Of a stretch of DNA of 64,000 nucleotides, positions 16,953 to 62,889 are shown piece after piece (within the stretch, counting starts at the first letter, position 1; every line of letters starts with the position of its first letter). The notes beneath the pieces were generated by a model. That model saw nothing but the letters and a program-made list of their open reading frames with translations, had not been told where the DNA came from and searched no databases. Position numbers and translations under genes: made by a program. Source of the stretch: Devosia naphthalenivorans (lineage in GTDB: Bacteria > Pseudomonadota > Alphaproteobacteria > Rhizobiales > Devosiaceae); contig NZ_PYVW01000005.1 of NCBI RefSeq assembly GCF_003056355.1, forward strand, positions 1 through 64,000, read 5' to 3'.

Positions 16953-18403
16953 GCACCGCCATGCACCAGCTAGCCAACCGCGCCTTGTTGCGCGACCAGT
17001 CCTTCATCAATGGCCGCTTCGTGGGCGAAGGCGCCGACCCGGTGACCAATCCTTCGACCGGAGAGGTCCTTGCTCTCGTGCCAAGCTTCGGCGCAGCGGA
17101 AGCGACCGAGGCGGTGGAAGCGGCATCGGCCGCCTTCCCGGCCTGGGCCGCCCTCACCGCCAAGCAGCGCAGCGCGGTGCTGCGCCACTGGTTCGACCTG
17201 ATCATGCTGCACAGGCAGGATCTGGCCGCCATCCTTACGGCCGAGCAGGGCAAGCCCGTGTCCGAGGCGCTGGGCGAGATCGACTATGCGGCCAGCTATG
17301 TCGAATTCTATGCCGAGGAAGCCAAGCGGGTCAGCGGCGAAATCCTGGCTTCGCACCGCGCCGACGCCCGGCTTCTGGTGCTCCGCCAGCCCGTGGGTGT
17401 CGTCGCCGCGATCACGCCCTGGAATTTCCCTGCTGCCATGATCACGCGCAAGATTGCTCCGGCCCTGGCAGCTGGTTGCACTGTGGTCGTCAAGCCGGCG
17501 CCCGAGACGCCGTTGACGGCTCTTGCCTTGGCCGACCTCGCCCAGCAGGCAGGCTTCCCCGACGGGGCGGTGAATGTCATCACTGGCGACGCCATCAGCA
17601 TCGGCAAGGTTCTCACAAGCCATCCGGCGGTGCGACTAGTGGGCTTTACCGGCTCTACCGAAGTCGGACGGATCCTGATGGCGCAGGCGGCGCCCACAAT
17701 CAAGAAGGTGGCGCTCGAACTGGGCGGCAATGCGCCATTCATCGTCTTCGACGATGCCGATCTCGATGCCGCAGTCGATGGCGCCATCCTTTCCAAGTTC
17801 CGCAATATGGGCCAGACCTGCGTCTGCACCAACCGCATCTATGCGCAGAGCGGAATCCACGACGCCTTTGTCAAGCGCCTCCAGGAGAAGATCGCCGCTC
17901 TCAAGGTGGGCGACGGCTTCGAAGACGGGGTGGTGCAGGGACCGCTCGTCAATGCGGACGCCCTGGCCAAGGTCGAGGCCCATGTCGCTGATGCCCTTGC
18001 CAAGGGAGCGCGTCTCGTCACCGGCGGGCAGCGCCACGCGCTGGGTGGCAGCTTCTTCGAACCCACCCTGATCGTAGGCGCGCGAGCCGATATGCTGGTG
18101 GCGCAGGAAGAAACGTTCGGGCCTCTGGCGGCCGTCTTCGCCTTCGACACGGAGGCCGATGTGCTCGCGGCTGCGAACGCCACCGAAACAGGGTTGGCCG
18201 CCTATCTCTACACGCGCGACAACAGCCGGGTGTTCCGCATGATCGAGGGGCTCGAATATGGCATGGTTGGCGTCAATACGGGACTTATCTCGACCGAACT
18301 CGCCCCGTTCGGCGGTATCAAGCAGAGCGGCAATTCTCGCGAGGGCTCCCATCATGGGATCGAGGAATTCACCGAGCTCAGATATGCCTGCATCGGCCTC
18401 TGA
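16949..18403 (+). CDS. gabD: succinate-semialdehyde dehydrogenase
   Basis: A 484-residue aldehyde dehydrogenase that oxidises succinate (or glutarate) semialdehyde to the diacid feeding the TCA cycle. Catalytic base E257 (ALELGGNAPF) and nucleophile C291 (NMGQTCVCTNR) are present; the Cys-Val-Cys pair is characteristic of GabD enzymes, where the second cysteine can form a redox-sensitive disulfide. The GTG at 16949 overlaps the gabT stop; an ATG at 16961 is an alternative. The operon continues after 27 bases into a D-threonine-aldolase-fold gene. Confidence 0.92.
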   Translation: MSTAMHQLANRALLRDQSFINGRFVGEGADPVTNPSTGEVLALVPSFGAAEATEAVEAASAAFPAWAALTAKQRSAVLRHWFDLIMLHRQDLAAILTAEQGKPVSEALGEIDYAASYVEFYAEEAKRVSGEILASHRADARLLVLRQPVGVVAAITPWNFPAAMITRKIAPALAAGCTVVVKPAPETPLTALALADLAQQAGFPDGAVNVITGDAISIGKVLTSHPAVRLVGFTGSTEVGRILMAQAAPTIKKVALELGGNAPFIVFDDADLDAAVDGAILSKFRNMGQTCVCTNRIYAQSGIHDAFVKRLQEKIAALKVGDGFEDGVVQGPLVNADALAKVEAHVADALAKGARLVTGGQRHALGGSFFEPTLIVGARADMLVAQEETFGPLAAVFAFDTEADVLAAANATETGLAAYLYTRDNSRVFRMIEGLEYGMVGVNTGLISTELAPFGGIKQSGNSREGSHHGIEEFTELRYACIGL

Positions 18404-18430
18404 CCGGCAGAAACTGAGAAGGGCTGGAAG

Positions 18431-19624
18431 ATGACAGCTGACGCGCCCCATGCCATTGCCCGTGGCGAGATCGAACTGCCGGTGATGACGCTGGATCGTC
18501 CGGTCTGGGAGAACAATCTCGCCGCCATGCTGGACTTCTGTCGGTCCGCTGGAGCGCTGTTCGCGCCCCATGCCAAGACGGCCATGATTCCTTCCCTTGC
18601 CATGGATGCTGTCCAGCAGGGCGCCTGGGGCGCGAGCGTCGCTGATGTCAGGCAGGCGGAGTCCATCCTCAAGTGCGGCATTAGCAATGTCATCATCGCC
18701 AATCAGGTCGTGGGCCGCACGGCGCTCGACCACCTTGCGGATCTGCAGCGGCAGATGCCGGAGGCAAGCATCGCTGTTTTCGTCGATTCCGATGAAGGCG
18801 TTGATCGTCTCGTCGCAGCGGCATTGCGGAACGGGACCCGGTTCCGTGTGCTGCTTGAGATCGGTGGTGGCCGCGCCGGGCTGCGAAGCAGCGACGAAGC
18901 CAAGGCGATTGCGGAACGGCTGCTCGGCCTGGACTGCATCACGTTGGTTGGGATTGCCTGCTACGAAGGCTCGGTCGCTTCGGCCGACCACGCCGAAACA
19001 GTGTCACGGATCGACGCGCTCCTGGCCATGACAAGCGAAGTCGCCTTCTGGCTCAGGGAACGCGATGCGCACCGCCCAATCATGCTTTCGGCCGGCGGAT
19101 CGCTTTATTTCGACCTTGTCATCGAGCGCCTCGCCACCACGGCGCAACGCCTCGGCAATGCGGAAATCGTTCTGCGCTCAGGAGCGGGGATATTCCACGA
19201 CCACGGAATCTATCAGATAGGGGTTGAGAAGATGCGTCAGCGCAATCTTTCCGGCTCGGAGGAATATGCCGGCCATCTCCGGCCAGCCTTGCGTGTCTGG
19301 ACGGAAATTCTATCCAGACCAGAGCCGAAACTGGCCATAGCCGGCGCCGGCATGCGACACCTGTCCTTCGACCAGGGGCTTCCCGTGGTCCTCAATTGCT
19401 ACCGCGACGGTAGGATGCTGACCATCCGTCCGGGCGAAGTCAGGATCGTGCGGCTGAATGATCAACACGCCTTTGTTAAACTACCCGAGGACTCGAACCT
19501 AGCCGTTGGTGACGTTCTGGAACTGGGTATTTCTCATCCCTGTACAGCAATGGATCGTTGGCGGCAGGTCACCGTGCTGGACCGGAGCGGTATCACCGGT
19601 AATCTGGACACGGAATTCGGCTGA
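18431..19624 (+). CDS. D-threonine aldolase / D-serine dehydratase-like PLP enzyme
   Basis: A 397-residue fold-type III PLP protein. The N-terminal alanine-racemase-like barrel has the Schiff-base lysine in APHAKTAM (about residue 56). The C-terminal Asp/Ser dehydratase-like domain has the metal-binding motif HPCTAMDRW (the His and Cys of the family's H-x-C site). Members cleave or deaminate D-beta-hydroxy amino acids, or act as broader amino-acid deaminases. It follows gabD by 27 bases and is the last gene of the LysR-linked operon, placing a second D-amino-acid enzyme in the island beside the DadA-like one. Exact substrate unknown. Confidence 0.82.
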   Translation: MTADAPHAIARGEIELPVMTLDRPVWENNLAAMLDFCRSAGALFAPHAKTAMIPSLAMDAVQQGAWGASVADVRQAESILKCGISNVIIANQVVGRTALDHLADLQRQMPEASIAVFVDSDEGVDRLVAAALRNGTRFRVLLEIGGGRAGLRSSDEAKAIAERLLGLDCITLVGIACYEGSVASADHAETVSRIDALLAMTSEVAFWLRERDAHRPIMLSAGGSLYFDLVIERLATTAQRLGNAEIVLRSGAGIFHDHGIYQIGVEKMRQRNLSGSEEYAGHLRPALRVWTEILSRPEPKLAIAGAGMRHLSFDQGLPVVLNCYRDGRMLTIRPGEVRIVRLNDQHAFVKLPEDSNLAVGDVLELGISHPCTAMDRWRQVTVLDRSGITGNLDTEFG

Positions 19625-20013
19625 AGGCTTTCTCCCGAGCGCGCTTCGAGTCCGATAAAGACGCCCGCAAACATGCTGGACTTTGCCGCTCGGAGCGAAG
19701 TTGGCAGCTCTTGATCCTCCCGGGAAAATGGCAGACTAAGGCTCATCTACGCCATAACCAGACAGTCTGCTTCCCACCCCATTTCTGCTGTTTGGTCACT
19801 AGGCCGATGTGACCAACATCTTGCTTGCAGGCCCACCCTTGAAATCGAAATGTGCCTGATACACATTGGTTTTCGAGCTTATGCCGCTGAAAGTCCCATG
19901 CTTCCGGAACTCCCGGAGAGTCCCTCTCTCTCCGCCAATCTTAAACCATTGATTTCATTAAACATTTGACATTTCGGGCGGGAATTGTACCCAGCAATGT
20001 ACCCGAGGCGTCC
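19625..20013. other. junction region between catabolic island and integrated element
   Basis: No convincing gene is visible. It contains the hairpin TTGGTCAC (19792-19799) / GTGACCAA (19809-19816), the tRNA-Ser 3'-end fragment at 19921-19937, and two close copies of GTACCC at 19987 and 20000 just before the integrase start. Confidence 0.5.
19921..19937 (+). other. candidate attachment site: tRNA-Ser 3' end
   Basis: The 17 bases TCCCTCTCTCTCCGCCA match the end of many bacterial tRNA-Ser genes (T-stem, acceptor stem and encoded CCA). The preceding 75 bases do not fold as a tRNA, so only the 3' end is present. It lies 77 bases upstream of a tyrosine recombinase gene, the usual relation of an att site to its integrase. 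No second copy was seen in the window. Confidence 0.6.
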
Positions 20014-21600
20014 ATGCACCTTACCGCTCGTCCCAGCGGCTGGCGTTTTCAGATCAGAATCCCCCGTTCCCTTGAGCCTTGTTTCGGCACCGTGCCGGTC
20101 AGGCTGAACCTTGGCCCCTTGCCGAAACGTCCGGCATTGCGAGTGGCGCGTTTACTGGCCGGTCACGCCGAGCGGTTATTCCGTGCCGTCGAAACGGGGA
20201 ACGCCATGACCGATATGAGCCGCGACGAACTGGTCGAAGAATTGCAGGAACTGCTGGTGCAGGTGCTGGCCGATGCCGAAGCCACCATCGACAGCCTTCG
20301 CCGGCAGCGTGAGATGGAGGTGAAGACCGTCACCTTGCGCTTGCAGACCGAGCGGTACCGCGACCAGTTGGAAATGCAGGACCGGTTGAAACTGCTGGGC
20401 GGCGCTATCGACGGCCTCACCAAGGCTGCGGAGAGCCTGCCGAAGAACCAGCGCGACGACATTGCCGCCCAGATCGCGGTATTGTCGGCACAGGTGCAGC
20501 AGGTCTTGGCCGGTGGCCCCGACAAGCCCATGCTGCTGGACCAGCTTGAGGTTTGGACCGAGCTTCGCAAGGACCACGCGCAGGACAAGAAGGTCAAGAC
20601 TGACGCGAACCGCATCCGCGACTTCGTGGAATATGCCGGCAACAAGCCGGTCAACCGCTATCGGTTCTCAGATTTCCAGAGCTTCACCAATGTGCTGGCG
20701 CGCTCGCCCGCCAACATGGTCAAGGAGCGGGTGTTCCAGGGCATGACGCGGGAGCAGGCTGCGAACCACAATGACACCCTGAAGGAGCGTCGTTTCCCCA
20801 CGCTCACGGGCAAGGCCATCGAGGCGAACTATCTCAGCCCGCTTCGCATGTTCTTCAAGACCATGGCCGCAGAACATGATTTCCGTTCACCTTTGGCCGA
20901 CATGAGCCCGAGCATTCCCAACACGGCCCGCGATTCCGTGGTCCGCGTGCCGTTCACGGTCGAGGAACTGAATATCTGGTTCAAGGCGGCGGCGCAGGAG
21001 AAGCGGCCAGACCTCAAGTGGTTGCCGCTATTGGCGACACTGACCGGCGCCCGCGTGGGCGAACTGATCTTTCTGCAAGGCAAGGACGTTCGCAAGATCA
21101 CCGATACGCTCTGGGTTGCGGACCTGACCACAGACCTCATCATCGAGGGAGAAGAGACGGAGCGGCAGATCAAGAACGAGACCAGCCGCCGCCTGTTCGC
21201 GCTGCATGAGATGCTGGAGCAGACGGGGTTTTATGAGCATTGCGCCAAGCGCAAATCCGACGAATGGCTGTTCCCCCATGCTTTCCGGCATGGCAAGGAA
21301 CTGGTGAAAGACCCCGCAGATGCCGCCAGCAAGCGCCTTAATGGACGGTTGGAGAAGCTGGGCATCCATCGGCCCTATGAAACCACGTTCCATTCCAGCC
21401 GGCACACCGCAAAGGACATTATGCGCGTGGCCAAGATCGACCCTCGCACGGCAGACCGCCAGACAGGCCACGCGATGAAGAGCGCCGGCGACAACTACGG
21501 CAAGAAAACCTTGCTGGTCGAAGAAGTCGAGGTGCTGGCTGCGGTGCGCTTGCCCGAGGCGCTGGACCTGTCGCCTTATATCACCAGGCCAAACGCATAG
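20014..21600 (+). CDS. tyrosine recombinase (site-specific integrase)
   Basis: A 528-residue phage-type integrase. The N-terminus (MHLTARPSGWRFQIRIP) matches the DUF6538 domain common in proteobacterial integrases. A long helical region follows, then a SAM-like core-binding domain and the catalytic domain. The catalytic set is visible: Arg in TGARVGELIFLQ, His-x-x-Arg in HSSRHTAKD, His in TGHAMKSAG, and the tyrosine nucleophile in DNYGKKT about ten residues later. The frame is open from 19966, but the domain begins at the ATG at 20014. It should catalyse excision and integration at the adjacent tRNA-Ser site. Confidence 0.92.
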   Translation: MHLTARPSGWRFQIRIPRSLEPCFGTVPVRLNLGPLPKRPALRVARLLAGHAERLFRAVETGNAMTDMSRDELVEELQELLVQVLADAEATIDSLRRQREMEVKTVTLRLQTERYRDQLEMQDRLKLLGGAIDGLTKAAESLPKNQRDDIAAQIAVLSAQVQQVLAGGPDKPMLLDQLEVWTELRKDHAQDKKVKTDANRIRDFVEYAGNKPVNRYRFSDFQSFTNVLARSPANMVKERVFQGMTREQAANHNDTLKERRFPTLTGKAIEANYLSPLRMFFKTMAAEHDFRSPLADMSPSIPNTARDSVVRVPFTVEELNIWFKAAAQEKRPDLKWLPLLATLTGARVGELIFLQGKDVRKITDTLWVADLTTDLIIEGEETERQIKNETSRRLFALHEMLEQTGFYEHCAKRKSDEWLFPHAFRHGKELVKDPADAASKRLNGRLEKLGIHRPYETTFHSSRHTAKDIMRVAKIDPRTADRQTGHAMKSAGDNYGKKTLLVEEVEVLAAVRLPEALDLSPYITRPNA

Positions 21601-21620
21601 GGGTCGTCCGAATCGACCCC
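21600..21620 (+). terminator. stem-loop after the integrase gene
   Basis: GGGGTCG (21600-21606) and CGACCCC (21614-21620) pair perfectly around a 7-base loop starting at the last base of the integrase stop codon. No T-run follows, so termination is plausible but not certain. Confidence 0.45.
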
Positions 21621-21735
21621 ACTACCGACACTCGCTGCGGATTTGGGCAATCCCGAAAGCCGCCGTTCACGCCCTCACGACAATATCGGCGGGCAGCTCT
21701 AAAAGTTCGAAATGGATGACAAAGGCCAAGCCAGA

Positions 21736-22227
21736 CTACAACCCAGCTCCAATTGCCTCCATCTGCTCAATTTCGCGTCGTTGCGCCTCGATGATTTCGC
21801 TGCAGAGCTGCACCAGTTCCTGATCCCGTAGGTCTGCCTCACGGCACATGAGGATTGCGCCGGAATGGTGAGGAATCATGGAGTCGATGAACTGGCCGTC
21901 ATCGATCAACGCCTGCGATCGTGTGGCCCAAAACGAGCCGACTGTTAGCACGGCGAACAGCACGTAGAGCATGATATTCAAGCCCTTCTTGGGGAACATG
22001 CCCGGCATGGTGGCGAGCATGAATATGCCCATGGGCGCCCACATGGTCACGGCCATGTAGAACATGTTTAGGTTGTTCCGGAAATCGCCTGTGCCATCGA
22101 TCATCGAGAACATCACCACGTACATAACGACAAGGCCCAGGATCATGTTGATCCAGAACATCAAGTAGGGGTGCCCGTGGCCGCGATGCTTGCCCTGCAA
22201 CTGGGCGTGTTGTTCATGTTTGCTCAT
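21736..22227 (-). CDS. membrane-anchored DUF305 protein
   Basis: A 163-residue protein with a His-rich N-terminus (KHEQHAQLQGKHRGHGHP) and three predicted membrane helices (about residues 22-42, 56-74 and 84-102). A periplasmic DUF305 helix bundle contains FIDSMIPHHSGAILMCREA. The HH pair, Met and Cys are the family's likely metal ligands. DUF305 proteins are common in copper islands. It is divergent from nirK, with 163 bases between the two start codons. Confidence 0.82.
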   Translation of the reverse strand: MSKHEQHAQLQGKHRGHGHPYLMFWINMILGLVVMYVVMFSMIDGTGDFRNNLNMFYMAVTMWAPMGIFMLATMPGMFPKKGLNIMLYVLFAVLTVGSFWATRSQALIDDGQFIDSMIPHHSGAILMCREADLRDQELVQLCSEIIEAQRREIEQMEAIGAGL

Positions 22228-22320
22228 GTTCGCTTTCCCTCTATGTCACGCAGTTCAGGCGAGTGAAGGCCCTCGGAGCTGTCTACCGCAAGCGCTTTCG
22301 TCAGTGCTCGCTACGCCTAG

Positions 22321-22334
22321 TTGCGCTGGCGCAA
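22321..22334 (+). promoter_or_regulatory. NnrR-type (CRP/FNR family) binding site upstream of nirK
   Basis: TTGCG-CTGG-CGCAA is a perfect palindrome matching the alphaproteobacterial NnrR-type consensus TTGCG-N4-CGCAA used for nitric-oxide-responsive denitrification promoters. Its centre is 63 bases from the nirK ATG, so a class II position at -41.5 would put the transcript start about 22 bases before the start codon. Confidence 0.6.
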
Positions 22335-22390
22335 CGAGCCGAAGCTTTAGCGAGGGTATCGTGAGTTCCATGATGTCGAGAGGAGACCAC

Positions 22391-23461
22391 ATGCGCGCGC
22401 GAAATCGCCTACTCCCGGCTCTGGCAGCAATCTTGATGTTGGTCACCTCCGCTGGAGCTGTTTCGGCAGCGGGGTCTCATGACCATCCTGAGGAGAACGG
22501 CACAGCCACTGCGCCGCTCGACATTGTTCGGAAGGCTACTGATCTGCCGGCATGGGAGAGCCGTGCGCCGCAGACCATCACGATAGACCTCGAAACGGTG
22601 GAGGTGACCGGAGCGCTCGCTGATGGCGCCAGCTACCATTACTGGACCTTCAACAGGAAAGTGCCAGGGCCCTTCGTGCGGGCTCGCGTGGGCGATACCA
22701 TCAAGGTCAGCCTCCACAATGCCTCTGACAGTTCGGAACCCCACAGTGTCGACTTCCATGCTGCCACTGGCCCGGGCGGCGGCGGGGTGGCAACCCATGC
22801 AGAAGCGGGCGAGACCCGGGAGTTCTCCTTCAGGACGCTGAAGCCCGGGCTCTACGTGTACCATTGCGCTGTGCCATCAGTGGCACAACACATCTCAAAT
22901 GGGATGTACGGTTTGATCTTGGTCGAGCCGGAAGAAGGGCTGCCGCCCGTGGACAGAGAATTCTATGTCATGCAGGGGGAGCTCTATACCGCTGAGGCAT
23001 TTGGTACCCAAGGTAACCTGCAAGGGAGTGTGGAGAAGCTCGGGGCTGAACAGCCTGAGTACTACGTCTTCAACGGCGCTGCCGAGGCGCTGACCGGCAA
23101 CAATGCATTGGTGGCTGAGACAGGCGAGACCATCCGGATTTATTTCGGCGTCGGTGGGCCGAACAAGGACTCTAGCTTCCATGTCATCGGAGAGATATTC
23201 GATCGCGTGTATCAGCTGGGCTCGTTCGTTACCCCGCCGATGCTGGATGTGGGCACTATCTCCGTGCCGCCCGGCAGTGCCGCCGTGGTTGATATGACGC
23301 TGGAGGTGCCCGGGGAGTTCATCCTGGTGGATCACGCTCTGTCGCGGGCCGAACGGGGACTTCTCGGCAAGTTGGTCGTCACGGGCAAAGAGCAACGGGA
23401 TATTTTCGATGTGCCTGACCTTGGTTTGAATGAAACCCACACGGACAAGGAGCCACATTGA
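22391..23461 (+). CDS. nirK: copper-containing nitrite reductase (AniA-type)
   Basis: A periplasmic two-cupredoxin enzyme that reduces nitrite to nitric oxide. The 356 residues start with a Sec signal peptide (about 1-27, ending AVSAAG). Copper ligands are all present: type 1 His118, Cys159, His167 and Met172 (HSVDFH, YHCAVPSVAQHISNGM); type 2 His123, His158 and His315 (VDHALSRA). Catalytic Asp121 and His264 (SSFHVIGEIFD) are intact. Sequence style matches AniA of Neisseria rather than the blue rhizobial NirK. The ATG at 22391 follows GAGGAGACCAC; the longer open frame from 22190 overlaps the DUF305 gene. Regulation by an NnrR-type factor is suggested by the box at 22321. Confidence 0.93.
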   Translation: MRARNRLLPALAAILMLVTSAGAVSAAGSHDHPEENGTATAPLDIVRKATDLPAWESRAPQTITIDLETVEVTGALADGASYHYWTFNRKVPGPFVRARVGDTIKVSLHNASDSSEPHSVDFHAATGPGGGGVATHAEAGETREFSFRTLKPGLYVYHCAVPSVAQHISNGMYGLILVEPEEGLPPVDREFYVMQGELYTAEAFGTQGNLQGSVEKLGAEQPEYYVFNGAAEALTGNNALVAETGETIRIYFGVGGPNKDSSFHVIGEIFDRVYQLGSFVTPPMLDVGTISVPPGSAAVVDMTLEVPGEFILVDHALSRAERGLLGKLVVTGKEQRDIFDVPDLGLNETHTDKEPH

Positions 23462-23514
23462 TGAATGGAAGCCACGTCCAAGACGCAACCGCTGGTCAGT
23501 GAAGGAATAAGGAC

Positions 23515-23997
23515 ATGAAGATTTTCACCCGCAGATCGACCCTGTGTCTGGGTGCAGCCGCCGTGGGGCTTACGATCGTCCCTGCTTTCAGCTTCGAGAG
23601 CGGCCCGGAGGTGATGGTCTGGAACGATCCTTATTGTGGCTGCTGCAGTGGGTGGATGGCCCACCTGCGGGCAAACGGATTTTCAGTTCAGTCTGCTGAT
23701 GTCGAAGACATGGAAACGCTGAAGAGCGAAAGAGGCATTCCTCCAGAACTCCGATCCTGCCACACCGCCCAAGTTCAAGGTTATGTTGTTGAAGGCCACG
23801 TGCCTGCTGCCGCCATAAACCGGCTGCTGGAAAAGAAGCCTGCGAACGTCTCGGGCCTTGCAGTCGCTGGCATGCCACTCGGTTCACCAGGAATGAGCGC
23901 ACCCGAAGGATATCCACCCGACCGTTACGACGTGATTGCCTTCAGGGGCAAGGAACAGTTCCTGTTCATGCGTTTTGAGGGTGACCAGCAACTCTAA
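23515..23997 (+). CDS. DUF411 metal-binding protein
   Basis: A 160-residue exported protein. The N-terminus has a Tat-like twin arginine (TRRSTLCLGAAAVG). The mature part carries the DUF411 cysteine cluster NDPYCGCCSGWMAHL, a further Cys-His in RSCHTAQVQGY, VEGHVPAAAINRLL and GMPLGSPGM. DUF411 proteins bind copper or mercury in the periplasm and are frequent in copper-resistance islands. It is 53 bases downstream of nirK, probably in the same transcript, and ends at a bidirectional terminator. Confidence 0.88.
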   Translation: MKIFTRRSTLCLGAAAVGLTIVPAFSFESGPEVMVWNDPYCGCCSGWMAHLRANGFSVQSADVEDMETLKSERGIPPELRSCHTAQVQGYVVEGHVPAAAINRLLEKKPANVSGLAVAGMPLGSPGMSAPEGYPPDRYDVIAFRGKEQFLFMRFEGDQQL

Positions 23998-24014
23998 GGT
24001 GCAATGGCTTGCTG

Positions 24015-24040
24015 AGAAGGGGCGCTACAGCGCCCCTTCT
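24015..24040. terminator. bidirectional terminator
   Basis: A perfect 12-bp stem, AGAAGGGGCGCT and AGCGCCCCTTCT, with a 2-base turn lies exactly between the convergent DUF411 (ends 23997) and DUF305 (ends 24052) genes. Rightward it is followed by the T-rich GCTTTCTATCTT. Confidence 0.75.
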
Positions 24041-24051
24041 GCTTTCTATCT

Positions 24052-24513
24052 TCAGTTCGCCGCTTCGGCTGCGGCGTGCTCCTCAAGCCAGGACATCATT
24101 TCGGCGATCTCCTGCTCCTGGGAGTCGATGATCTTCTGAGCCATTGCCCTGGCGTCTTCGTTGTCGCCATGGTCCAGCTCAGCCTTGGCCATGTTCACTG
24201 CGCTCTGGTGATGGGGGATCATGCCGCAGATGAACGCTACGTCGACGTCCTCGGCCATCATGCCCATCATCATTTGCCGGTTCATCTCATCCATGCCCTC
24301 CATGAGGGCCATGTGAGCTTCATCCATCTGTTCTGGTTTCATGGACATTTCTTCCATGGGATGGTCGCCGCCCGTCATGCAGATATCGGGAAGCTGCATC
24401 TGGCCGGGCGCCATGCCTGCCATGTCATGTCCTTGGTGTTCCTGAGCGAGAAGGTTTCCTGTCGAAGCTGCAAGCAGGAGACCGGCTACAGCAGTTGATT
24501 TGAAGAAGTTCAT
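24052..24513 (-). CDS. periplasmic DUF305 protein
   Basis: A 153-residue exported protein with signal peptide MNFFKSTAVAGLLLAASTG and then a Met/His-rich segment (EHQGHDMAGMAPGQM). The DUF305 bundle contains FICGMIPHHQSAVNMAKAEL and ends with helix IIDSQEQEIAEMMSWL. The methionine- and histidine-rich composition suggests copper or silver buffering in the periplasm. I prefer the ATG at 24513, because AGGA lies 9 bases upstream, over the in-frame ATG at 24522. It is the last gene of a leftward copper operon headed by the P-type ATPase. Confidence 0.85.
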   Translation of the reverse strand: MNFFKSTAVAGLLLAASTGNLLAQEHQGHDMAGMAPGQMQLPDICMTGGDHPMEEMSMKPEQMDEAHMALMEGMDEMNRQMMMGMMAEDVDVAFICGMIPHHQSAVNMAKAELDHGDNEDARAMAQKIIDSQEQEIAEMMSWLEEHAAAEAAN

Positions 24514-24556
24514 TTTGTTCATTCCTGAAAATGTTTTCCGAAAGGGATCGATCGGG

Positions 24557-24919
24557 TCAGGAATGCCTTGGAGGTCGATCAAGGCGCTCAATGGGCCAAT
24601 TCACATCGACATGCGTGGCCAGCGGGTGGTGCGGAGATCGGTTCCAGTCTGGAGGGGTGGTAGCAGCAGGACCAGGCAGCGCAGCCAGGCATAAACCCAT
24701 TCCGCAACATTCGGGCAAGGTGTGATGCTGTTGCTCGCAAGCCAAAGCTCCGCAGTCGTTATCGTGATGAACCTGGTCTTGGTGCTGATGGTGAGCAACA
24801 GAAAACTGGCTTGCCATTGCGCTGTGGTGCAGTGTCATGCTCGACACTACAGCCAGCATGACGGCGATAATCAGCCGCATGCGCCACCTGCCGCAATGGT
24901 CCAATCTGTATAACCTCAT
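24557..24919 (-). CDS. small exported His/Cys-rich hypothetical protein
   Basis: A protein of about 120 residues. An internal hydrophobic stretch (RLIIAVMLAVVSSMTLHH) serves as signal peptide. The mature part is rich in His and Cys (HHQHQDQVHHDNDCGALACEQQHH, CCGMGLC). This composition fits a metal-binding periplasmic protein of the copper operon. The start is uncertain: the ATG at 24919 has AGGA at good spacing, while 24880 would start directly at the signal peptide. I know no family name for it. Confidence 0.6.
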   Translation of the reverse strand: MRLYRLDHCGRWRMRLIIAVMLAVVSSMTLHHSAMASQFSVAHHQHQDQVHHDNDCGALACEQQHHTLPECCGMGLCLAALPGPAATTPPDWNRSPHHPLATHVDVNWPIERLDRPPRHS

Positions 24920-24994
24920 GGGCATCCTAATCTGCAAATCTCCGGTGGGTTCCCCGTGTAATTCACGCAAGGATCAGCGAGCACGTTCATCAAA

Positions 24995-27370
24995 CTAGCC
25001 AATGCTGGCGCTGCGGAGGCGTAACGAGTTGGCGATCACGCTGACCGAGGACAGCGCCATGGCCGCCGCAGCGATCGCTGGTGATAGGGTAATGCCGAAA
25101 AACGGATAGAGGAGGCCTGCTGCAACCGGCACCCCGGCTGCGTTGTAGATAAACGCGAAGAACAGGTTCTGGCGGATGTTGCCCATCGTTGCATGCGACA
25201 GGCGGCGGGCACGGACAATCCCCATCAGGTCCCCATTGAGCAAGGTCACCCCGGCACTTTCCATGGCAACATCGGTTCCGGTTCCCATGGCAATGCCGAC
25301 ATCGGCAGCAGCTAACGCGGGTGCGTCATTGACACCGTCACCAGCCATGGCCACCACCTTGCCTTGGGATCGGAGACGTTCGACCACTTCGCTCTTGCGT
25401 TCTGGCAACACGTCGGCCTCCACTTCAGTGATCCCGAGGCGCTGGGCAACGGCATTTGCGGTCACAGCATTGTCGCCGGTCATCATGACGACGCGGATGT
25501 TCTCCGACCTCAGCGCCGATAGTGCATCGGCTGTCGTTTGGCGGATCGGATCAGCGATACCGATGCCCCCGGCAACCTCTCCGTCGATTGCCACCAGCAC
25601 GACCGTGGCGCCCTCAGATCGGACATTGTCAGCCCTTCCCTTCCAGTCGTCTATCGAAACGCCCTCGGAAGCGAGGTACTTGGCGCTGCCGATCAGCACC
25701 CGCTTTCCGTCTACCATGCCCGTCAACCCTTTCCCCACAGGAGAGTCCACGTCTGACGGGTTAGACAGTTCAATGGCCCGTTCCTGGGCGGTAGCCACGA
25801 TGGCGACACCAAGCGGATGCTCGCTTGCGCGTTCAAGGCTGGCCGCCACACGAAGCAGGGTATGCTCATCGAAACTTTCGGCTGGAAGAAGGTGGGTCAC
25901 TTTGGGCTTACCTTCGGTCAGGGTGCCGGTCTTGTCCACGACCAGCGTGTCGACCTTTTCCAGACGTTCCAGAGCTTCCGCATTCTTGACCAACAGCCCG
26001 GATTGGGCACCCTTACCCACACCCACCATGATAGACATGGGTGTAGCCAGACCGAGGGCACAAGGGCAGGCGATGATCAGCACCGACACGGCGGCAACAA
26101 GCGCGTGGGCGAAGCGAGGTTCGGGCCCCCAGATCATCCATGCGCCGAATGCCACGAACGCGATGCCGATCACCAGGGGAACAAACCAACCGGAGACTTG
26201 ATCCGCCAGGCGCTGGATAGGCGCCCTTGATCGCTGTGCGGTGGCCACCATTTGCACGATACGAGCCAACATGGTGTCGCGGCCAACGCCAGTCGCCTCC
26301 ATGACCAGACCCCCAGACTGGTTGATTGTTCCGGCAACCAGCTTGGCTCCTTCCATCTTGGTAACCGGCATGGACTCGCCCGTCACCATGGACTCGTCCA
26401 CTGCACTACGACCTTCCAGGACCTTGCCATCGACCGGCACCTGTTCGCCCGGGCGCACCCGCAGCCAGTCACCTACACCCACCGCATCGACCTCCACCTC
26501 TTCGTCGGAGCCATCCGCTCTAATACGGCGGGCAGTTTTTGGCGCCAAGTTGAGCAGAGCCTTGATCGCACCCGAGGTCTTCTCCCTGGCCCGCAGTTCC
26601 AGCACCTGACCGAGGAGAGCCAACGCCGTAATCACAGCGGCGGCCTCGAAATAGACAGGAACGGCGCCGTCCATTTCACGCATGTTGCCCGGGAATATCC
26701 CGGGAAGGAATGTTGCCACGACCGAATAGATCCAGGCGACGCCGATCCCCATGGCGATCAGCGTGAACATGTTGAGGCTGCGGTTTCGGATCGATCCCCA
26801 GCCACGTTCGAAGAACGGCCACCCTGCCCAGAGGACAACCGGTGTTGCCAGCACCAGCTGTATCCAGTTGAGCGTTTGCCCAGACACCCAATGGTGCAGG
26901 TCGATCACATGCGCCGTCATCTCCAGGACGAACACCGGTAGCGCCAAGGCCGAGCCCACCCAGAACCGTCGCGTCATGTCCTGCAGCTCCGGGCTGGGCC
27001 CAGTCTCTGCTGTGGGTAGTTCCGGCTCAAGGGCCATTCCGCAGATTGGGCAAGAGCCGGGTTCGTTCCGCCTTATCTCTGGATGCATCGGGCAAGTCCA
27101 GATCGTGCCGGGCGGCGCCGTTTTGGTCGGGGCGTTCACTTCCCCCAGATACTTGGTCGGCTCGGCCGTGAACTTGCTTCGGCAATTTTCGGAGCAGAAA
27201 TAGTAGCTGGTTCCTTCGTAGGCCGCCTTGTGCTGTGCGGTCAGCGGATTGACCGTCATTCCACACACGGGATCTCTTGCCGCCGACGTGCTATCAAGCG
27301 CATCATCGCGTCTATGATGATGGTCATGGTGCTGGTGATCATGGTCGTTGTGCGTGTGGGGTGCAGACAT
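24995..27370 (-). CDS. copper-translocating P1B-type ATPase
   Basis: A 791-residue inner-membrane pump that exports Cu+ (or Ag+) to the periplasm. Order: His-rich N-tail (residues 5-20), YHS domain ([11 protein letters not shown] to [12 protein letters not shown], about 32-78), heavy-metal-binding zinc-ribbon-like domain ([11 protein letters not shown] to [10 protein letters not shown], about 92-118), then eight helices. The transport motif is [10 protein letters not shown], the phosphorylation site DKTGTLTEG, the SEHPLG histidine, and [10 protein letters not shown]. There is no classical HMA ferredoxin-like domain. The ATG at 27370 follows AAGGAGATCATCC; the frame upstream to 27508 crosses the CueR-like promoter. 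It heads a leftward operon with the His/Cys-rich and DUF305 proteins. Confidence 0.95.
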
Positions 27371-27389
27371 GGATGATCTCCTTTGTCCG

Positions 27390-27420
27390 ACCTTGCACCT
27401 TCCTGCAGTGGTAAGGTCAA
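27390..27420 (-). promoter_or_regulatory. CueR/MerR-type promoter of the copper ATPase operon
   Basis: On the minus strand a -35 TTGACC (27415-27420) and a -10-like CAAGGT (27390-27395) are separated by 19 bases containing the dyad ACCTT(A/T)CC...GGAAGGT. The over-long spacer with an ACCTT/AAGGT dyad is the hallmark of MerR-family copper activators (CueR). No MerR-family gene lies in the window, so the regulator is encoded elsewhere. Confidence 0.7.
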
Positions 27421-27559
27421 GGGGAAAGGAATCTTCCGACGCTATGTCTATGTGTTGATCTGCAAAGCCAAAAGCCGACTGACGGCTACCCACCCCCACT
27501 ATCGCCATCGAGGGGCTTGGTAGATTTCAATGCTGCTACTGGATACGGCGAGACAGTGA

Positions 27560-27682
27560 TCAGAGGGTAGCGAACCACGTTATGATCCTCACGGCCAATG
27601 CGCCGAGCAGGAAAAGGATGATGACGCCAAGAAATCGCTCAACGTTGTGCCACAGGCCAGCTTTCGGCCTTTGACCTGTCAT
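27560..27682 (-). CDS. small single-span membrane protein, 40 aa
   Basis: An ATG at 27682, preceded by GGAAAG, opens a 40-codon frame. Residues 1-16 are polar (MTGQRPKAGLWHNVER) and 17-40 are strongly hydrophobic (FLGVIILFLLGALAV, then RIITWFATL). The positive-inside pattern suggests one membrane helix. A 17-codon frame (MARIAEALDFIIEILER) ends exactly on this start (ATGA), which could couple translation. Unrecognised; it lies between the copper promoter and the mobilization module. Confidence 0.45.
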   Translation of the reverse strand: MTGQRPKAGLWHNVERFLGVIILFLLGALAVRIITWFATL

Positions 27683-28005
27683 CTTTCCAGAATTTCGATG
27701 ATGAAATCCAAGGCCTCCGCAATCCTCGCCATTTCGCCACTATCCAGTAATCAAACGATAGCGCCTACAGCATGGTTAGGGGAAGTTTCCGGTTTCCTAA
27801 CCACCCTCTCATTGCATTCTCAGCATCGTAAGCGGGCCGCCACCCTTCGCTATATGGCGGCTACGGGCAGCGTCCCGCCGACAGATGATCTGCCGAACTG
27901 CGTGCTGGCGCACATGTCCTTTGTCGATTTTTCCGTACATGCCTATTGCGGTATTCTAATACCACATCGATACTTATGCCGAACCTGAGGAAGGGGGCCA
28001 GCCAT
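27683..28005. other. non-coding stretch before the mobilization genes
   Basis: A rightward frame (27647-27988) is open but has no ribosome site and unconvincing composition; I do not call it. A perfect dyad GGTATT (27950-27955) / AATACC (27958-27963) is present. Confidence 0.4.
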
Positions 28006-28043
28006 GTCCGTTGCACGGACAGCTGGGCAGGGGGCAAGCCCCC
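28006..28043. other. candidate oriT: paired inverted repeats upstream of mobilization genes
   Basis: Two perfect dyads stand in tandem: GTCCGT-TGC-ACGGAC (28006-28020) and GGGGGC-AA-GCCCCC (28030-28043). They are followed by GTGCACCCC and sit 32 bases before the ribbon-helix-helix gene. Stem-loops next to a nick region directly upstream of the auxiliary protein and relaxase genes are the normal layout of an origin of transfer. The nick position is unknown. Confidence 0.5.
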
Positions 28044-28074
28044 GTGCACCCCAAAAGCAGAAAGGCGGTACGGT

Positions 28075-28347
28075 ATGCGCTCGAATGATGTGAGGATGGA
28101 GCTTCGGCTGCCAGCGGAAGACAAGGCTGCCGCGGAACGCGTCGCGAAGGAAAGGGGCATCTCGGTTTCGGCCTTGATCCGTAGCGCCCTGCGCTCGCAT
28201 CTGAAGCGGCCTCAGCCCCTGTCATCCGATGATGCCCATGCCGTCGCATCGCTGCGCCGCCGCATCAATGCCATCGAGGCTCGCCATGGCCGCACCGACG
28301 ATCTGGTGCAGACGCGGGCCGATGTCCAAATGCTGCTGGGTCGCTGA
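28075..28347 (+). CDS. ribbon-helix-helix mobilization accessory protein (MobC-like)
   Basis: A 90-residue protein that starts at the ATG at 28075. The N-terminal half (VRMELRLPAEDKAAAERVAKERGISVSALIRSALRSHL) is a classical ribbon-helix-helix: a beta strand, then two helices around GISVSALIR. The C-terminal half is a short helical region (IDAIEARHGR-like). Such proteins bind oriT and help load the relaxase. The relaxase gene begins 2 bases after it, and the paired dyads at 28006-28043 lie just upstream. Confidence 0.75.
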   Translation: MRSNDVRMELRLPAEDKAAAERVAKERGISVSALIRSALRSHLKRPQPLSSDDAHAVASLRRRINAIEARHGRTDDLVQTRADVQMLLGR

Positions 28348-28349
28348 CC

Positions 28350-29459
28350 ATGCTCATCAAGGCCACACGCCTCAGGGCTTCGGCTGGGGCCGGCGCTCTG
28401 GCCCGGCATCTGAGCAATGCGGACGACAACGAGGCGGTGGAGATCGTGCAGGGCGCGATTGCCGACCTCGATGACGCCGTGGCCGATGCACGCCGGTTCG
28501 GCCGCACCTATTCCGTCCGGCATTTCATTATCGCGCCGCAGGTGGAGATGGACCGCCAGCAGTTCCACGGGGTGGTCGGCATGCTGGGGACCGAGTTCGG
28601 TTTTGACCCCGCAACGCCCCTTATTGTGGCACACACCAAGGCCCGTGCCGTCGCCGATGTCGCCACCCAGCATTGGCATTTGGTTGTGCCGGAAACGGAT
28701 CCTGCGACAGGACGGGTTCTATCGTCGCGCTTCGATCATGCCCGGCATGAGAAGATCGCCCGCCAAGCTGAAATCTTGCTGGGCCATCCCATCATCGCCG
28801 GGGCGCATGATCTGGCCGTCCTCGCCGCCCTTCGAGCTGAGGGCAAGGCAGAGATAGCCGACCAGTTGGCCGTCCATCTGGGTAAAGGCGAGCGGCCTGC
28901 GGCCGCCTTTACCACGGTCCAGCATCAGGCAGCAAAACGGGCCGGGATAGACCTCGCCCTTGTCCGCGAGAATATCCGTGCCGCATGTGCCGACATGCCC
29001 ACCGGCGCGGAATTGCGTGGGCGGTTGGCTGCCCACGGCCTTACCCTCGCCCGAGGCGAGAAGCCGGCAACATGGGTGGTGATGGGGCCGGATGGTCAGT
29101 TCCTTGGTGCCGCTCATCGCCTATCCGGTCTGAGGAAGGCCGATTTCAACACCATCATGGAGAATGATCATGACCACGACCGCCAAGCTTGCCCAGCCCA
29201 ACGCCGGGCATTTGATCCATCAAGACACGCAGGCCCTGCGCCGGGACGTCGCGACGATCCTGGAACTGGCGCGAAACACCGCCCTGCCGATGCCGGGGGA
29301 GAGCATGTCCGTTCTGGACGCGATGCTGGGCCTGCTGCAAACCATCTGGCTGGTCGAGTCGAAGTCATTGAAGCTCTACCTGACCTCGTTCCGCAACCAC
29401 GGCGCATTCCACGAAGACTGTACCGTCTCGATTGGACGCCGGCTGGTGAGTCTGCTTGA
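28350..29459 (+). CDS. relaxase / mobilization nuclease, C-terminus questionable
   Basis: A predicted single-strand nickase that initiates conjugative transfer. The 369-residue reading contains the three-His metal site of Pfam relaxases: an upstream His in [14 protein letters not shown], then [18 protein letters not shown] (about residues 108-125). Residues up to about 268 ([16 protein letters not shown]) look genuine. After that the frame overlaps another ORF for 290 bases, and its composition ([14 protein letters not shown], Arg/Pro-rich) looks like an out-of-frame read. The original protein probably ended near 29170 or was cut by rearrangement. Many relatives are longer, so it may be inactive. 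Confidence 0.7.
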
Positions 29460-29598
29460 GCCCAGATGGCTGCGGATCGGCGGATATTGGTATCCTCGCG
29501 GCGGCATTCCGATTGACGTGTTCTGGCAGACCGGGGTTGTACCCCAGCACGTATGGCTGCCCGACACAGGTGTGCCGGCCTATCGGGGGCGGGGATAG
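29164..29598 (+). pseudogene. chimeric ORF: mobilization-protein start fused to QueF C-terminal half
   Basis: A 144-residue frame. Residues 1-61 ([18 protein letters not shown], then helical) are not QueF and look like a small mobilization accessory protein. From W62 (29347) the sequence is textbook 7-cyano-7-deazaguanine reductase: [61 protein letters not shown]. Only the last 83 residues of QueF remain. The N-terminal half with the nucleophilic cysteine (normally SLCPVTGQPDF) is absent, so preQ0 reduction is not expected from this copy. The fusion is in frame, so a hybrid protein may be made. Confidence 0.8.
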
Positions 29599-29747
29599 AA
29601 ACCGACGCCAGAGAACCTGTTTGTTTCAGCCGAACTGTCGGCTGAACGCCCGGCCAGCCAAAGCAGATGAGGTGGATGGCTCACGCTCCCCTCGTTGCTG
29701 GAAACAGAGGTGCTGGTGGCCGCTAACCGGCAGCCACCAGCCGAAGC

Positions 29748-29960
29748 TCAGTCGGTCAGCTCGATACTCGCGATTGCGCGCTCAAGCAACGAAATGGGCT
29801 TTAGCTCTTTCGAGTAGCCTGTGGTGGTGCGTTGAACCACAACAAAGCCGACCGAGCATAGGTCTGCGGAAAGCTGCAGAAGGTCGCGCTTGTCCGCTCC
29901 GTTGAAGGCCCGACCAGAGTGCAGGGTAAACTTGTAGTTTGGCGCCGTTGGCGGCGCCAT
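29748..29960 (-). CDS. hypothetical protein, 70 aa
   Basis: A short frame beginning MAPPTAPNYKFTLHSGRAF and ending ISLLERAIASIELTD; alternating hydrophobic and polar residues suggest a small alpha/beta protein. Its ATG (29958-29960) coincides with the break in the truncated GFA gene, so it may itself be a rearranged piece. I do not recognise it. Confidence 0.35.
   Translation of the reverse strand: MAPPTAPNYKFTLHSGRAFNGADKRDLLQLSADLCSVGFVVVQRTTTGYSKELKPISLLERAIASIELTD
29941..29958. repeat. inverted repeat at a rearrangement junction
   Basis: GGCGCC (29941-29946) and GGCGCC (29953-29958) flank GTTGGC. The dyad lies directly beside the point where the GFA gene is interrupted. Confidence 0.4.
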
Positions 29961-30034
29961 ATGTGAACCTTTTGGAGATCGATGGCCGCATCGAACGGTA
30001 TTGCCCCACAGTGACACGATCCGTCGACGTGCAT
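29960..30034 (-). pseudogene. N-terminal fragment of a GFA-family (CENP-V/GFA) gene
   Basis: From an ATG at 30034 the frame reads MHVDGSCHCGAIPFDAAID and then LQKVHI, the standard start of glutathione-dependent formaldehyde-activating (DUF636) proteins with zinc ligands in CHCGA. After 25 codons the similarity stops; the next zinc ligands (usually CHCTDC) are missing and unrelated sequence follows. It is a remnant left by recombination. Confidence 0.65.
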
Positions 30035-30060
30035 CTGACCCTCCCTTTGCCAAGAAACGA

Positions 30061-30255
30061 TCACCCTATGGTGATTGTGAGGTCAAGGAGGCCAGCTTAC
30101 CTTACGTGGCCTCTGGAAGCCGCCAGTCCGCAACCCTCCCCACAATCGCCGGTCAGCAAGCGAGCCCATTGCGGCCGTTGGATTGACAAAGCGTGGAGAT
30201 TGAAAGCTGTGGATGCCGTTCATCCGCTACCGGATGCGGCGGCTGATCAACCAAC
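30061..30255. other. no gene seen
   Basis: Short overlapping frames only. Nothing with a ribosome site, recognisable motif or structure could be supported between the GFA remnant and the small membrane protein. Confidence 0.4.
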
Positions 30256-30534
30256 TTAATGCCATAGCATTCTGCCAACGGTCCAACCAACACTTGCGCC
30301 GAGTAAAGCCAGGATCAAGGCGCCTATGAGATTGTAAGTGCTGCCGAAAATGAAGCCCCCAGCAGCCCCGGCAACTAGACCAAGAAGGCCGGTAGTAGCT
30401 TCTTTATTGCTCAATCCGCCAGCTCCCAGCTGATGCTCTAGAAGGCTCAAAGTACTGACCCATATACCCTGTCGCCTTCTAAGCGTGAATAGTTCCGATA
30501 GAAGCGGGACCGCCAGATTACGGATGTCTAACAA
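30256..30534 (-). CDS. small Gly/Ala-rich membrane protein (hypothetical)
   Basis: Up to 92 residues. The C-terminal half has two glycine-rich hydrophobic segments (TGLLGLVAGAAGGFIFG and LIGALILALLGASVGW), like small membrane proteins of the GlsB/YeaQ type, though I cannot confirm the family. The true start is unclear; an internal start would remove the polar N-terminus. It is close to the rearranged right end of the mobile element. Confidence 0.4.
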   Translation of the reverse strand: MLDIRNLAVPLLSELFTLRRRQGIWVSTLSLLEHQLGAGGLSNKEATTGLLGLVAGAAGGFIFGSTYNLIGALILALLGASVGWTVGRMLWH

Positions 30535-30694
30535 AAAGGCCGCCAGTCTTCATGCCACTCCACTGAAGTCATGTAAGCAGCCCTTGAATGGACGTTCGTC
30601 AAAATAGCAAGGAAGCAAGAAGCGCTGTGTTTCTGAATTCCATTTGACATAATAATTGGCTGGTGCCAGTCTCCAGATGCTGAGGGGCACAACA

Positions 30695-31858
30695 ATGGCG
30701 ATGAGGGGTACAAATCAGGAGAAGGCTCGGCCGCTCAATCGGCGCATCGTCCTTGAGTGTATTCGCAGCAACCACGCGATAACTCGTGGTGCCATTGCCG
30801 ATCAGGTGGGCCTGACTGTGCAGACGGTTTCCACCATAGTGCGGGAACTTGAAGAACTCGGGTATGTTCTGTCGGTGCGCGAAGCACCTAAGGGGCGCGG
30901 ACTTCCACCGACTACGCTGCGGCTCAATCCCGACGGCGGCTATGCTATCGGGGTATCTGTTACGCCGCTGGGCGTCGCTGCTGCTCTGATGAACCTTGCC
31001 GGCGACATGCTCGGCAGTACAACACGTCCATCTAACCATCCAGCACCAAACGAGGCTTTTGCCTTGATTGAGGACTTGGTCGCTGAAATGCGGGCCTTGC
31101 GTCCGGACGGGCGTATCCTTGGCGTGGGTTTCGCGATGCCCGGGCCGTTTGACGTGCAGGCCATGAGCTTTGTAGGTCCAACCACCCTCGATGGATGGTC
31201 AGGTGTACCCGTGCATGCCCGGCTTGAGGAGGTCACCAGGCTGCCTGGCTTCATTGCCGTCGACACGGTGGCGGCCGCAGTTGGGGTTCGCCTCTATGGT
31301 GAAGGCGGTTCATTTCCTCAGTTCTACTATCTTCATTTCGGCGCAGGATTGGGCGGCGTCATGATGCAGGATGGAATTCCGATCCGAGGTGCATGGGGCA
31401 ACGCCGGCGAAATCGGCCATATCTCCGCCGTGCCAGGCGGCTCGCCATGTCCCTGCGGCAATGAAGGTTGTCTTGAGCGCTATGTTTCGCTTGAAAGCTT
31501 CAACAATCGCCCTCATGGGCAAAGCTTGGCTGAGTGGGTCGACGAAGTCACCCCGATTTTCCATCGTGCCATCCAGACGATCGAAAACCTGTTCGATCCG
31601 CAAACCATTGTTCTCGGCGGTATGGCGCCAGCCGAGTTAATCGAGGCGCTTGTCGCGACGACCGAGCGCCTGCCTACATCTATTTCCAGCCGCTACGACC
31701 GGACCACGCAGCGCGTCATCGCCTCGGCTGGTCATCAGTCAATGCTGCGCGGGGCAGCAGCTCTAGCGGTAAGTGGAGTGTTGTCGCCACGGCAGGAACT
31801 CGCGACTTCCCCCACTCGCAAGAAGCGCGATCCCTTTTCGACCGGAATAGCGGCATGA
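30695..31858 (+). CDS. ROK-family transcriptional regulator
   Basis: A 387-residue NagC/XylR-type regulator. It has an N-terminal winged helix (IVLECIRSNHAITRGAIADQVGLTVQTVSTIVRELEELGYV) followed by a ROK sugar-kinase-like domain. The ROK zinc motif is complete: EIGHISAVPGGSPCPCGNEGCLERYVS, with three cysteines and a histidine. I use the ATG at 30695 (GAGGGG about 8 bases upstream); the frame opens at 30656. Its stop overlaps the ATPase start (ATGA), so the regulator is encoded in the transporter operon it probably represses. The inducer is likely the transported sugar. Confidence 0.9.
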   Translation: MAMRGTNQEKARPLNRRIVLECIRSNHAITRGAIADQVGLTVQTVSTIVRELEELGYVLSVREAPKGRGLPPTTLRLNPDGGYAIGVSVTPLGVAAALMNLAGDMLGSTTRPSNHPAPNEAFALIEDLVAEMRALRPDGRILGVGFAMPGPFDVQAMSFVGPTTLDGWSGVPVHARLEEVTRLPGFIAVDTVAAAVGVRLYGEGGSFPQFYYLHFGAGLGGVMMQDGIPIRGAWGNAGEIGHISAVPGGSPCPCGNEGCLERYVSLESFNNRPHGQSLAEWVDEVTPIFHRAIQTIENLFDPQTIVLGGMAPAELIEALVATTERLPTSISSRYDRTTQRVIASAGHQSMLRGAAALAVSGVLSPRQELATSPTRKKRDPFSTGIAA

Positions 31859-62400: not shown

Positions 62401-62889
62401 CATGCTGCTGAGATCCGCGAGGCCTGCACTGGCGGAGAACAGCAATTCGCCCAGATCGCCCTTGGACTGAATGATGGCGTTGCCCCCTTCCTCGAGCGTG
62501 CGGTCATCCAGCGAGAACATAGTCTGGTAGGCGTCGCGGGTGAGACCGGCGAGGGGGACGCTGAGCAGGGCTTCGTTGAGCGGTTGCCCGGATTTGTCGA
62601 GCAGCGATCCGGTGCGTTGCTTGACGCGGACGAGTTCGTGCCTCTCGCCGCTGAATTCGAGCAGGCCGCCGATCTGCATGCTGGGATAGGGATGGAGGAA
62701 ATTGAACCGGCTGCGCTCCTCGATGCCGAAGATCAGATCGAGATAGGCGGCCAGAGCGGTGGATTTGCCCGCTTCGTTGAGGCCGTAGACGATGTGCAGA
62801 TCGGGCGCGCCGGGCTCGGCGGGGCCAAAGTCGATGCTGTGGTCGGTGAACTTGCCGTAGCGGGTGAGGTCGAGGCGGCGCAGGCGCAT
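59410..62889 (-). CDS. YhaN/SbcC-like AAA ATPase (DNA-repair exonuclease subunit)
   Basis: A 1159-residue SMC/Rad50-like ATPase. The N-terminal half-site has RRLDLTRYGKFTDHSIDFG and Walker A YGLNEAGKSTALAAYLD (about residues 34-50). Very long Ala/Glu/Leu/Arg-rich coiled coils extend from about 170 to 1000, with no clear CxxC zinc hook visible. The C-terminal half-site has DMSKGTQFQLYLALRLAGYQE (signature) and FIADDIMETFDEPRSEEVFRLL (Walker B and D-loop). It works with the metallophosphoesterase subunit, whose stop codon shares a base with this start, in processing DNA ends. Confidence 0.9.
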   Translation of the reverse strand: MRLRRLDLTRYGKFTDHSIDFGPAEPGAPDLHIVYGLNEAGKSTALAAYLDLIFGIEERSRFNFLHPYPSMQIGGLLEFSGERHELVRVKQRTGSLLDKSGQPLNEALLSVPLAGLTRDAYQTMFSLDDRTLEEGGNAIIQSKGDLGELLFSASAGLADLSSMLEAIRSKAEEIYKQRGRTTDIAELKKQLALLKADRDAVDTLASAHSALVAALAQAEATYESAIREQAETKAQLDGLTRLLRAAPLASEHHGLVQALAAIGELPTPPADWASELPKLLTRSTELRTQIATTGEDLKRLDGEIAEITVDEKLLALSNQIDALATGMDRFTTAESDLPRRRETLIEHEAVIAAILRALDEENHPDPRQLLLTAPVVGELRDLIEARSGVDAQLTTAERELALARENVEIASAEKDAIGTGAAPSASAGLAGIEAALSTMRRSNHQARLHLAERALPQFSRRYHAALDSLLPWRGEGNALRSLTLPTQRQIDLWRTRTIGLEARRNEHSGKLHEFKTREQEETARISAIRAQTGRIDDTEANRLRAARDAAWTAHLQQLEQASAAAFVQALRDDDAIGTARLANAQALADLRALEQALAVTKARLGAQEEELARTDADLKALRAEVEAALPAGMTPSSAEILILLEALESWTRRRDEAIVAWDALAETQDDLANAKADLDRDIAMLAEALTLSGHENVEDLSANALMQAAEAALTQGSARQASAAAAEKTLRDRERDLQARERDFKQAQASVQQWQTAWAAALEKTWFAAGGAGAVRETLDALADLPAALNQRDELLRRIDTMQRDQENFAASLGALTNELGEPLNPSRLVETAKNLAERREAADRARRLLEQKTRERVRLAAILRSIGSDLESLSARTGEMTNFFAVERLDEVAPALEQAAERARLQERLQALETRIVEEMRSPDLASASEKLAAIDLAQSEQDAAETSTRLNDLEERRLQLFAERSRAADRLQAIGGDDAVARIEARRRTVLLEIEDKAMTYLRLRTGALVAEKALRVYREKHRSSMMNRASEAFALITRGDYTGLTARPEKDRETLVGLPRQGGSKLASDMSKGTQFQLYLALRLAGYQEFALARPSVPFIADDIMETFDEPRSEEVFRLLGEMSKIGQVIYLTHHRHLCDMAKAVVPGVQVHSISG

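Follow-up and report, generated by a model that had tools for sequence, protein, structure and literature searches.

A queF remnant joined in frame to a mobilization gene at a probable deletion scar in Devosia naphthalenivorans

The window analysed here, a stretch of 64,000 nucleotides of Devosia naphthalenivorans DNA (contig NZ_PYVW01000005.1, positions 1 to 64,000), contains on the plus strand a hybrid open reading frame of 144 codons (29164..29598), in which residues 1-61 come from the beginning of a small mobilization ORF and residues 62-144 are, in frame, the C-terminal half of a unimodular QueF. Comparison with relatives makes the ATG at 29170 a likelier native start than position 29164, and a GGAG ends 7 bases 5' of it. 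The mobilization part thus comprises the first 59 codons (29170..29346, plus strand) of an ORF that encodes 91-93 aa in intact relatives, to which it was assigned by identity, and is followed by the last 83 codons of queF with the stop codon (29347..29598, plus strand), assigned by Pfam family PF14489 and by relatives. Translation, PF14489 match and identities to relatives agree with one another and bear out the original prediction of an in-frame fusion between a mobilization ORF and the C-terminal half of QueF. That the frame was kept needs no special cause, because one join in three would keep it.

The joint between the two parts is blunt (29346|29347) and shares at most 1 bp of microhomology. 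DNA homology on the mobilization side ends at 29343 in one of the two closest relatives (L163) and at 29346 in the other (L164), and homology on the queF side begins at 29346 for the nearest genes (L165, L166, L126) and at 29347 for several others; some weaker blastn alignments begin slightly to either side, at 29341 in G027 and at 29350 in others. In the 74 other genomes of the genus, with four candidates scored per genome, no match extends across the joint beyond a few bases. A repeat scan found no convincing repeats at the joint that could account for a deletion.

The QueF part of the hybrid is readily recognized. In a Pfam scan PF14489 matches residues 62-124 with 83.4 bits against a cut-off of 27.3 (E 1.4e-23). 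Residues 62-144 are 91.6% identical to the 153-residue QueF encoded on a Pelagibacterium plasmid (H642), starting at residue 71 of the latter, and 95.2% identical to the proteins of two genomes of the same genus (L126 and L127; 79 of the 83 residues are the same in L126). The NCBIfam model QueF-II (TIGR03139) by contrast gives 73.6 bits, below its cut-off of 86.9, and covers only profile positions 51-111 of 115, whereas the intact H642 protein reaches 151.3 bits. Like unimodular QueF (QueF-II, TIGR03139; PDB 4f8b), the fragment has the C-terminal half, including the QueF motif E(S/L)K(S/A)hK(L/Y)(Y/F/W), here ESKSLKLY, and the equivalent of Glu97 in FHE. What it lacks are the 70 N-terminal residues with the segment SLCPVTGQPDF, which is present in the intact relative, was aligned there with PDB 4f8b, and carries the active-site Cys and Asp. 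Both Cys55 (B. subtilis numbering) and Asp62, which PMC5372742 uses as QueF-defining features, lie in this lost segment. Since the fragment starts after SLCPVTGQPDF, the catalytic N-terminal half is indeed gone, as had been claimed together with the inactivation of queF; the hybrid product would have no QueF nucleophile and most likely no function, a loss of activity that we deduce from the sequence.

The mobilization part belongs to a nested gene. The mob operon includes a ribbon-helix-helix/NikA-like accessory gene (27946..28347, plus strand), which scores barely over the cut-off of RHH_1 and under that of the NikA-like model, and a relaxase ORF (28350..29459, plus strand) that matches PF03432 with 27.3 bits (cut-off 24.6). 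This ORF is shortened to 369 aa as compared to 587-590 aa in five relatives (L163, L164, L123, L124, L125), and downstream of 29347 it is queF DNA read out of frame. In all five relatives an ORF of 91-93 aa begins in another frame near codon 275 of the relaxase gene, and it is the start of this nested ORF that the hybrid retains: identity of the mobilization part is 85% to L163, 81% to L164 and 51-59% to L123-L125, and in three further relatives residues 2/3-61 are 57% (L108) and 51% (L109) and residues 16-61 63% (L110) identical to the nested ORF. Across the overlap the relatives are 53-83% identical to each other in the nested frame, 24-67% in the relaxase frame and 28-66% in the unused third frame. 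By these identities it is the nested frame that is conserved in the overlap, the relaxase frame being about as variable as the third. The relaxase frame is nevertheless open through the overlap in all five relatives, for which random synonymous codons give a chance of 0.03-0.09 each, chances that are not independent as the relatives are kin. In the reverse control the nested frame would be open with a chance of 0.39-0.87 when the relaxase residues are kept fixed. That it is open is thus unremarkable alone, and the case for the nested gene therefore rests on its conservation. Among three members scanned the nested protein matched no Pfam family over cut-off, and among two no PHROG at E<=0.1. 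The layout resembles that of RSF1010, for which PMC2200642 describes mobB inside mobA/repB in a different frame, in that a small out-of-frame gene lies inside a relaxase gene whose frame runs on past it. The likeness is one of layout, and the copy in the window is cut by the joint. At hybrid residue 61 the joint removes about 34 of 93 residues from the mobilization protein and, at the same point, the C-terminal part of the relaxase. As to wider occurrence, the DNA of the mob region had no match in a search of plasmids, the L109 relaxase as a protein query matched 11 plasmids, all with less than 60% identity, and a viral-contig scan with the same relaxase found no relative. We regard the nested gene as the best by-product of this analysis; it merits a separate study.

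Upstream of the mob operon and on the same island lies a tyrosine integrase (19966..21600, plus strand), 93.7% identical over residues 17-542 to that of L123, where the integrase adjoins a tRNA-Ser gene and mob homology follows about 0.9 kb downstream. An att core, in relatives the 3' end of tRNA-Ser, was located by comparison with these at 19921..19937 (plus strand), within the integrase end of the island at 19900-19965. In the window it is preceded by element-side sequence (GGAGAG) and by no tRNA gene, an arrangement that would fit an attP or a tandem joint. An identical core is found in the tRNA-Ser (CGA) of this genome (C11), and the sequence of the integrase end is absent from the bases right after it. 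Scans of the window with Rfam (gathering threshold) and for tRNAs found nothing. Between integrase and mob operon the island carries metal-resistance cargo (22190..27508), namely a multicopper oxidase, DUF411, DUF305 and a heavy-metal P-type ATPase; the metal is probably copper. These metal genes fill a gap of about 5 kb between integrase and mob in the window, as compared to about 0.9-1.0 kb in L123 and L124.

Further truncated sequences follow downstream of the hybrid. At 29659..29690 (plus strand) there is a 32-bp terminus of the IS110 family, the rest of which is absent; it matches with 97% at unlike sites in five genomes of the genus, and in L170, the sole relative scanned, an IS110 transposase lies beside it. 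DNA matches place a portion of a small gene at 29748..29943 (minus strand), of which relatives occur at three further sites of the genome (C1, C8, C12). Of a GFA-family gene only the 5' part is left (29958..30064, minus strand; 75% DNA match to the intact L174 gene, which is PF04828 GFA), and it abuts the small gene. With several cut pieces in less than 1 kb, and the IS110 end and the GFA piece within 800 bp, we read this region as a scar zone and not as a fusion gene that has been tuned.

What became of the missing halves? The assembly comprises 4.49 Mb in 55 contigs with an estimated contamination of 3.64%, and the joint is read from this assembled sequence rather than from reads. With intact QueF as the query (E<=10) the N-terminal half has no match in the whole genome, the sole match being the fragment, and there is no second match to PF14489 in the genome at E<=0.001. 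Within the window the best match to the N-terminal half is at chance level (E 0.055). Likewise, the C-terminal stretch of the relaxase frame (223 aa of the L108 relative) was not found in the genome (best E 0.04, 27% identity). Two of the three ways out that had been offered for the cell, an intact queF elsewhere and a missing half beyond a larger rearrangement, thus find no counterpart in window or genome.

Among the 11 intact queF loci in the comparison, yhhQ lies immediately 5' of queF in eight (L101, L126, L127, L128, L131, L132, L165, L166) and not directly upstream in three (L129, L130, L137). The loci closest to the fragment (L166, L126, L127, L165, L101) are all of the yhhQ-queF type, and so yhhQ was probably lost too. 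A 1159-aa ORF in the window (59410-62889) resembles ORFs of 1159 aa near queF in L129 and L130 in length by coincidence, tblastn showing nothing with 40% identity or more at E<=1e-8, and the link was discarded. The genome has matches to PF02592 (the YhhQ family) at two other loci, one over and one under the cut-off; the better is 37% identical over 91 residues to H642 yhhQ, and the weaker reaches 19.8 bits against the TIGR00697 cut-off of 50.95.

The third way out, salvage, is the best fit of the three. The genes for TGT and QueA are present about 1 kb apart and intact QueF is absent, as in the salvage profile that lacks queF (PMC5372724). According to that paper, the lack of QueF as well leaves preQ1 as the sole precursor open to salvage. 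PMC11130926 counts QPTR/YhhQ as one of two transporter families that were known earlier. Our genome is like that profile in having TGT, QueA and a PF02592 gene and in having neither QueC over cut-off nor intact QueF, its sole QueC match reaching 20.2 bits with a cut-off of 22; it differs in that a remnant here records the loss. The comparison covered TGT, QueA, QueC, QueF and PF02592. TGT, QueA and the YhhQ-family gene are compatible with preQ1 salvage, and the organism can probably import its precursor, which from gene content would be preQ1.

The distribution of these genes in the genus speaks against the description of queF as an essential queuosine gene. PF14489 is found over cut-off in 29 of 61 genomes, the fragment of our genome included, and has no such match in 32, while QueA is found in 60 of 61, in some of them in pieces, the exception being a genome that is 62% complete. 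Counting weak matches at E<=0.001 would raise the PF14489 figure to 51 of 61; matches under the cut-off, at 20-26 bits in many genomes, presumably are GTP cyclohydrolase-type T-folds and were left out of the QueF count. In a search with the hybrid protein 18 of 37 genomes of the genus had no match. QueC matches of at least 80 bits are found in 12 of 61 genomes, and 59 have a match over the model cut-off of 22 bits; those of up to 30.8 bits, mostly to the first 60 or so of 210 positions, were discounted. One genome (G025, with loci L126 and L132) has three queF matches, and a strong QueC match lies about 8.5 kb away from one of them.

The pattern of substitution in the QueF fragment bears on the age of the break. 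By codon position 1/2/3, the changes on the branch of the window number 3/0/22 in comparison with H642 and L126 and 2/0/12 when L166 is added. Taking third positions as neutral, the neutral share of this branch is about 7-8%, with a 95% upper bound of 18-26%. The dN/dS of the fragment against L126 is 0.03. Because the changes fall mostly at third positions, the loss is probably recent and the gene would have been under selection before. A low dN/dS would be expected also if the hybrid were still constrained; a recent break is the simpler reading of the two.

Could the hybrid then be a functional fusion, translated and selected for instance as an accessory protein of mobilization that includes half a T-fold? 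The intact frame, the GGAG 7 bases before the ATG at 29170 and the near restriction of changes in the QueF part to third positions would be in keeping with this. However, the codon pattern is accounted for by a recent break, there is no second copy among the 74 other genomes of the genus, the mobilization protein and the relaxase have both lost their C-terminal parts at the same point, and the QueF part is devoid of the active-site Cys and Asp. We therefore consider it very unlikely that the hybrid is a translated and constrained chimera in which a mobile element has recruited the QueF half with its NADPH motif and substrate-anchoring Glu. A join by the assembler of two unrelated loci at 29347 is unlikely as well, if less so. 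The draft state of the assembly, its contamination and the lack of the joint in the 74 other genomes of the genus would speak for such an artefact, but an assembler joining two real loci should have left both other halves elsewhere, and neither was found. Moreover, searches of the genome with the hybrid protein or intact QueF match the hybrid ORF as the single place, a DNA search with 28860-30650 gives additional matches within the genome at 29744-29943 and none near the joint, and the repeats within 18400-31000 are short and imperfect among the families listed (20 of 32 direct). Finally, the queF fragment directly adjoins the island, as it would if the island had simply inserted into queF and the N-terminal half now lay at the other island end or, after a larger rearrangement, elsewhere. 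Yet the N-terminal half was found in neither window nor genome, for which reason we rejected this explanation, and the integrase end bears the tRNA-Ser att core and not queF sequence; insertion into queF has next to no probability in our judgement.

Since neither missing half was found in the assembly, a real deletion is favoured over insertion or a chimeric join, and we hold it to be very probable that the hybrid ORF is a non-functional pseudogene at a deletion scar, in an organism able to do without queF. In the sequence of events that we propose, an integrative mobilizable island composed of integrase, metal cargo and mob operon first came to lie on the 5' side of yhhQ and queF. An illegitimate deletion, for which there was at most 1 bp of microhomology, would then have taken the end of the mob operon on its 3' side, the right end of the island, yhhQ and queF codons 1-70, and would thereby have joined codon 61 of the mobilization ORF to codon 71 of queF, with the frame kept by chance. 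The cell would lose the reduction of preQ0 by queF and keep the machinery for imported preQ1. We infer, rather than reconstruct, that one deletion was the cause and that yhhQ and the right end of the island were lost with it; neither an empty nor an intact sister site came to light. Nothing was seen that would suggest targeting of queF by the element itself.

Judged by their listings, papers on queF pseudogenes and queuosine describe no such hybrid, and none was listed on queuosine in Devosia. As a further instance of gene loss next to a mobile element the case is ordinary and of little weight alone, because many relatives are also without queF and the precursor can probably be imported. It does however present an apparently recent loss of queF in a genus in which strong QueC is uncommon and QueA is nearly universal, and for this reason the genus would be well suited for testing a shift from preQ0 to preQ1 salvage.
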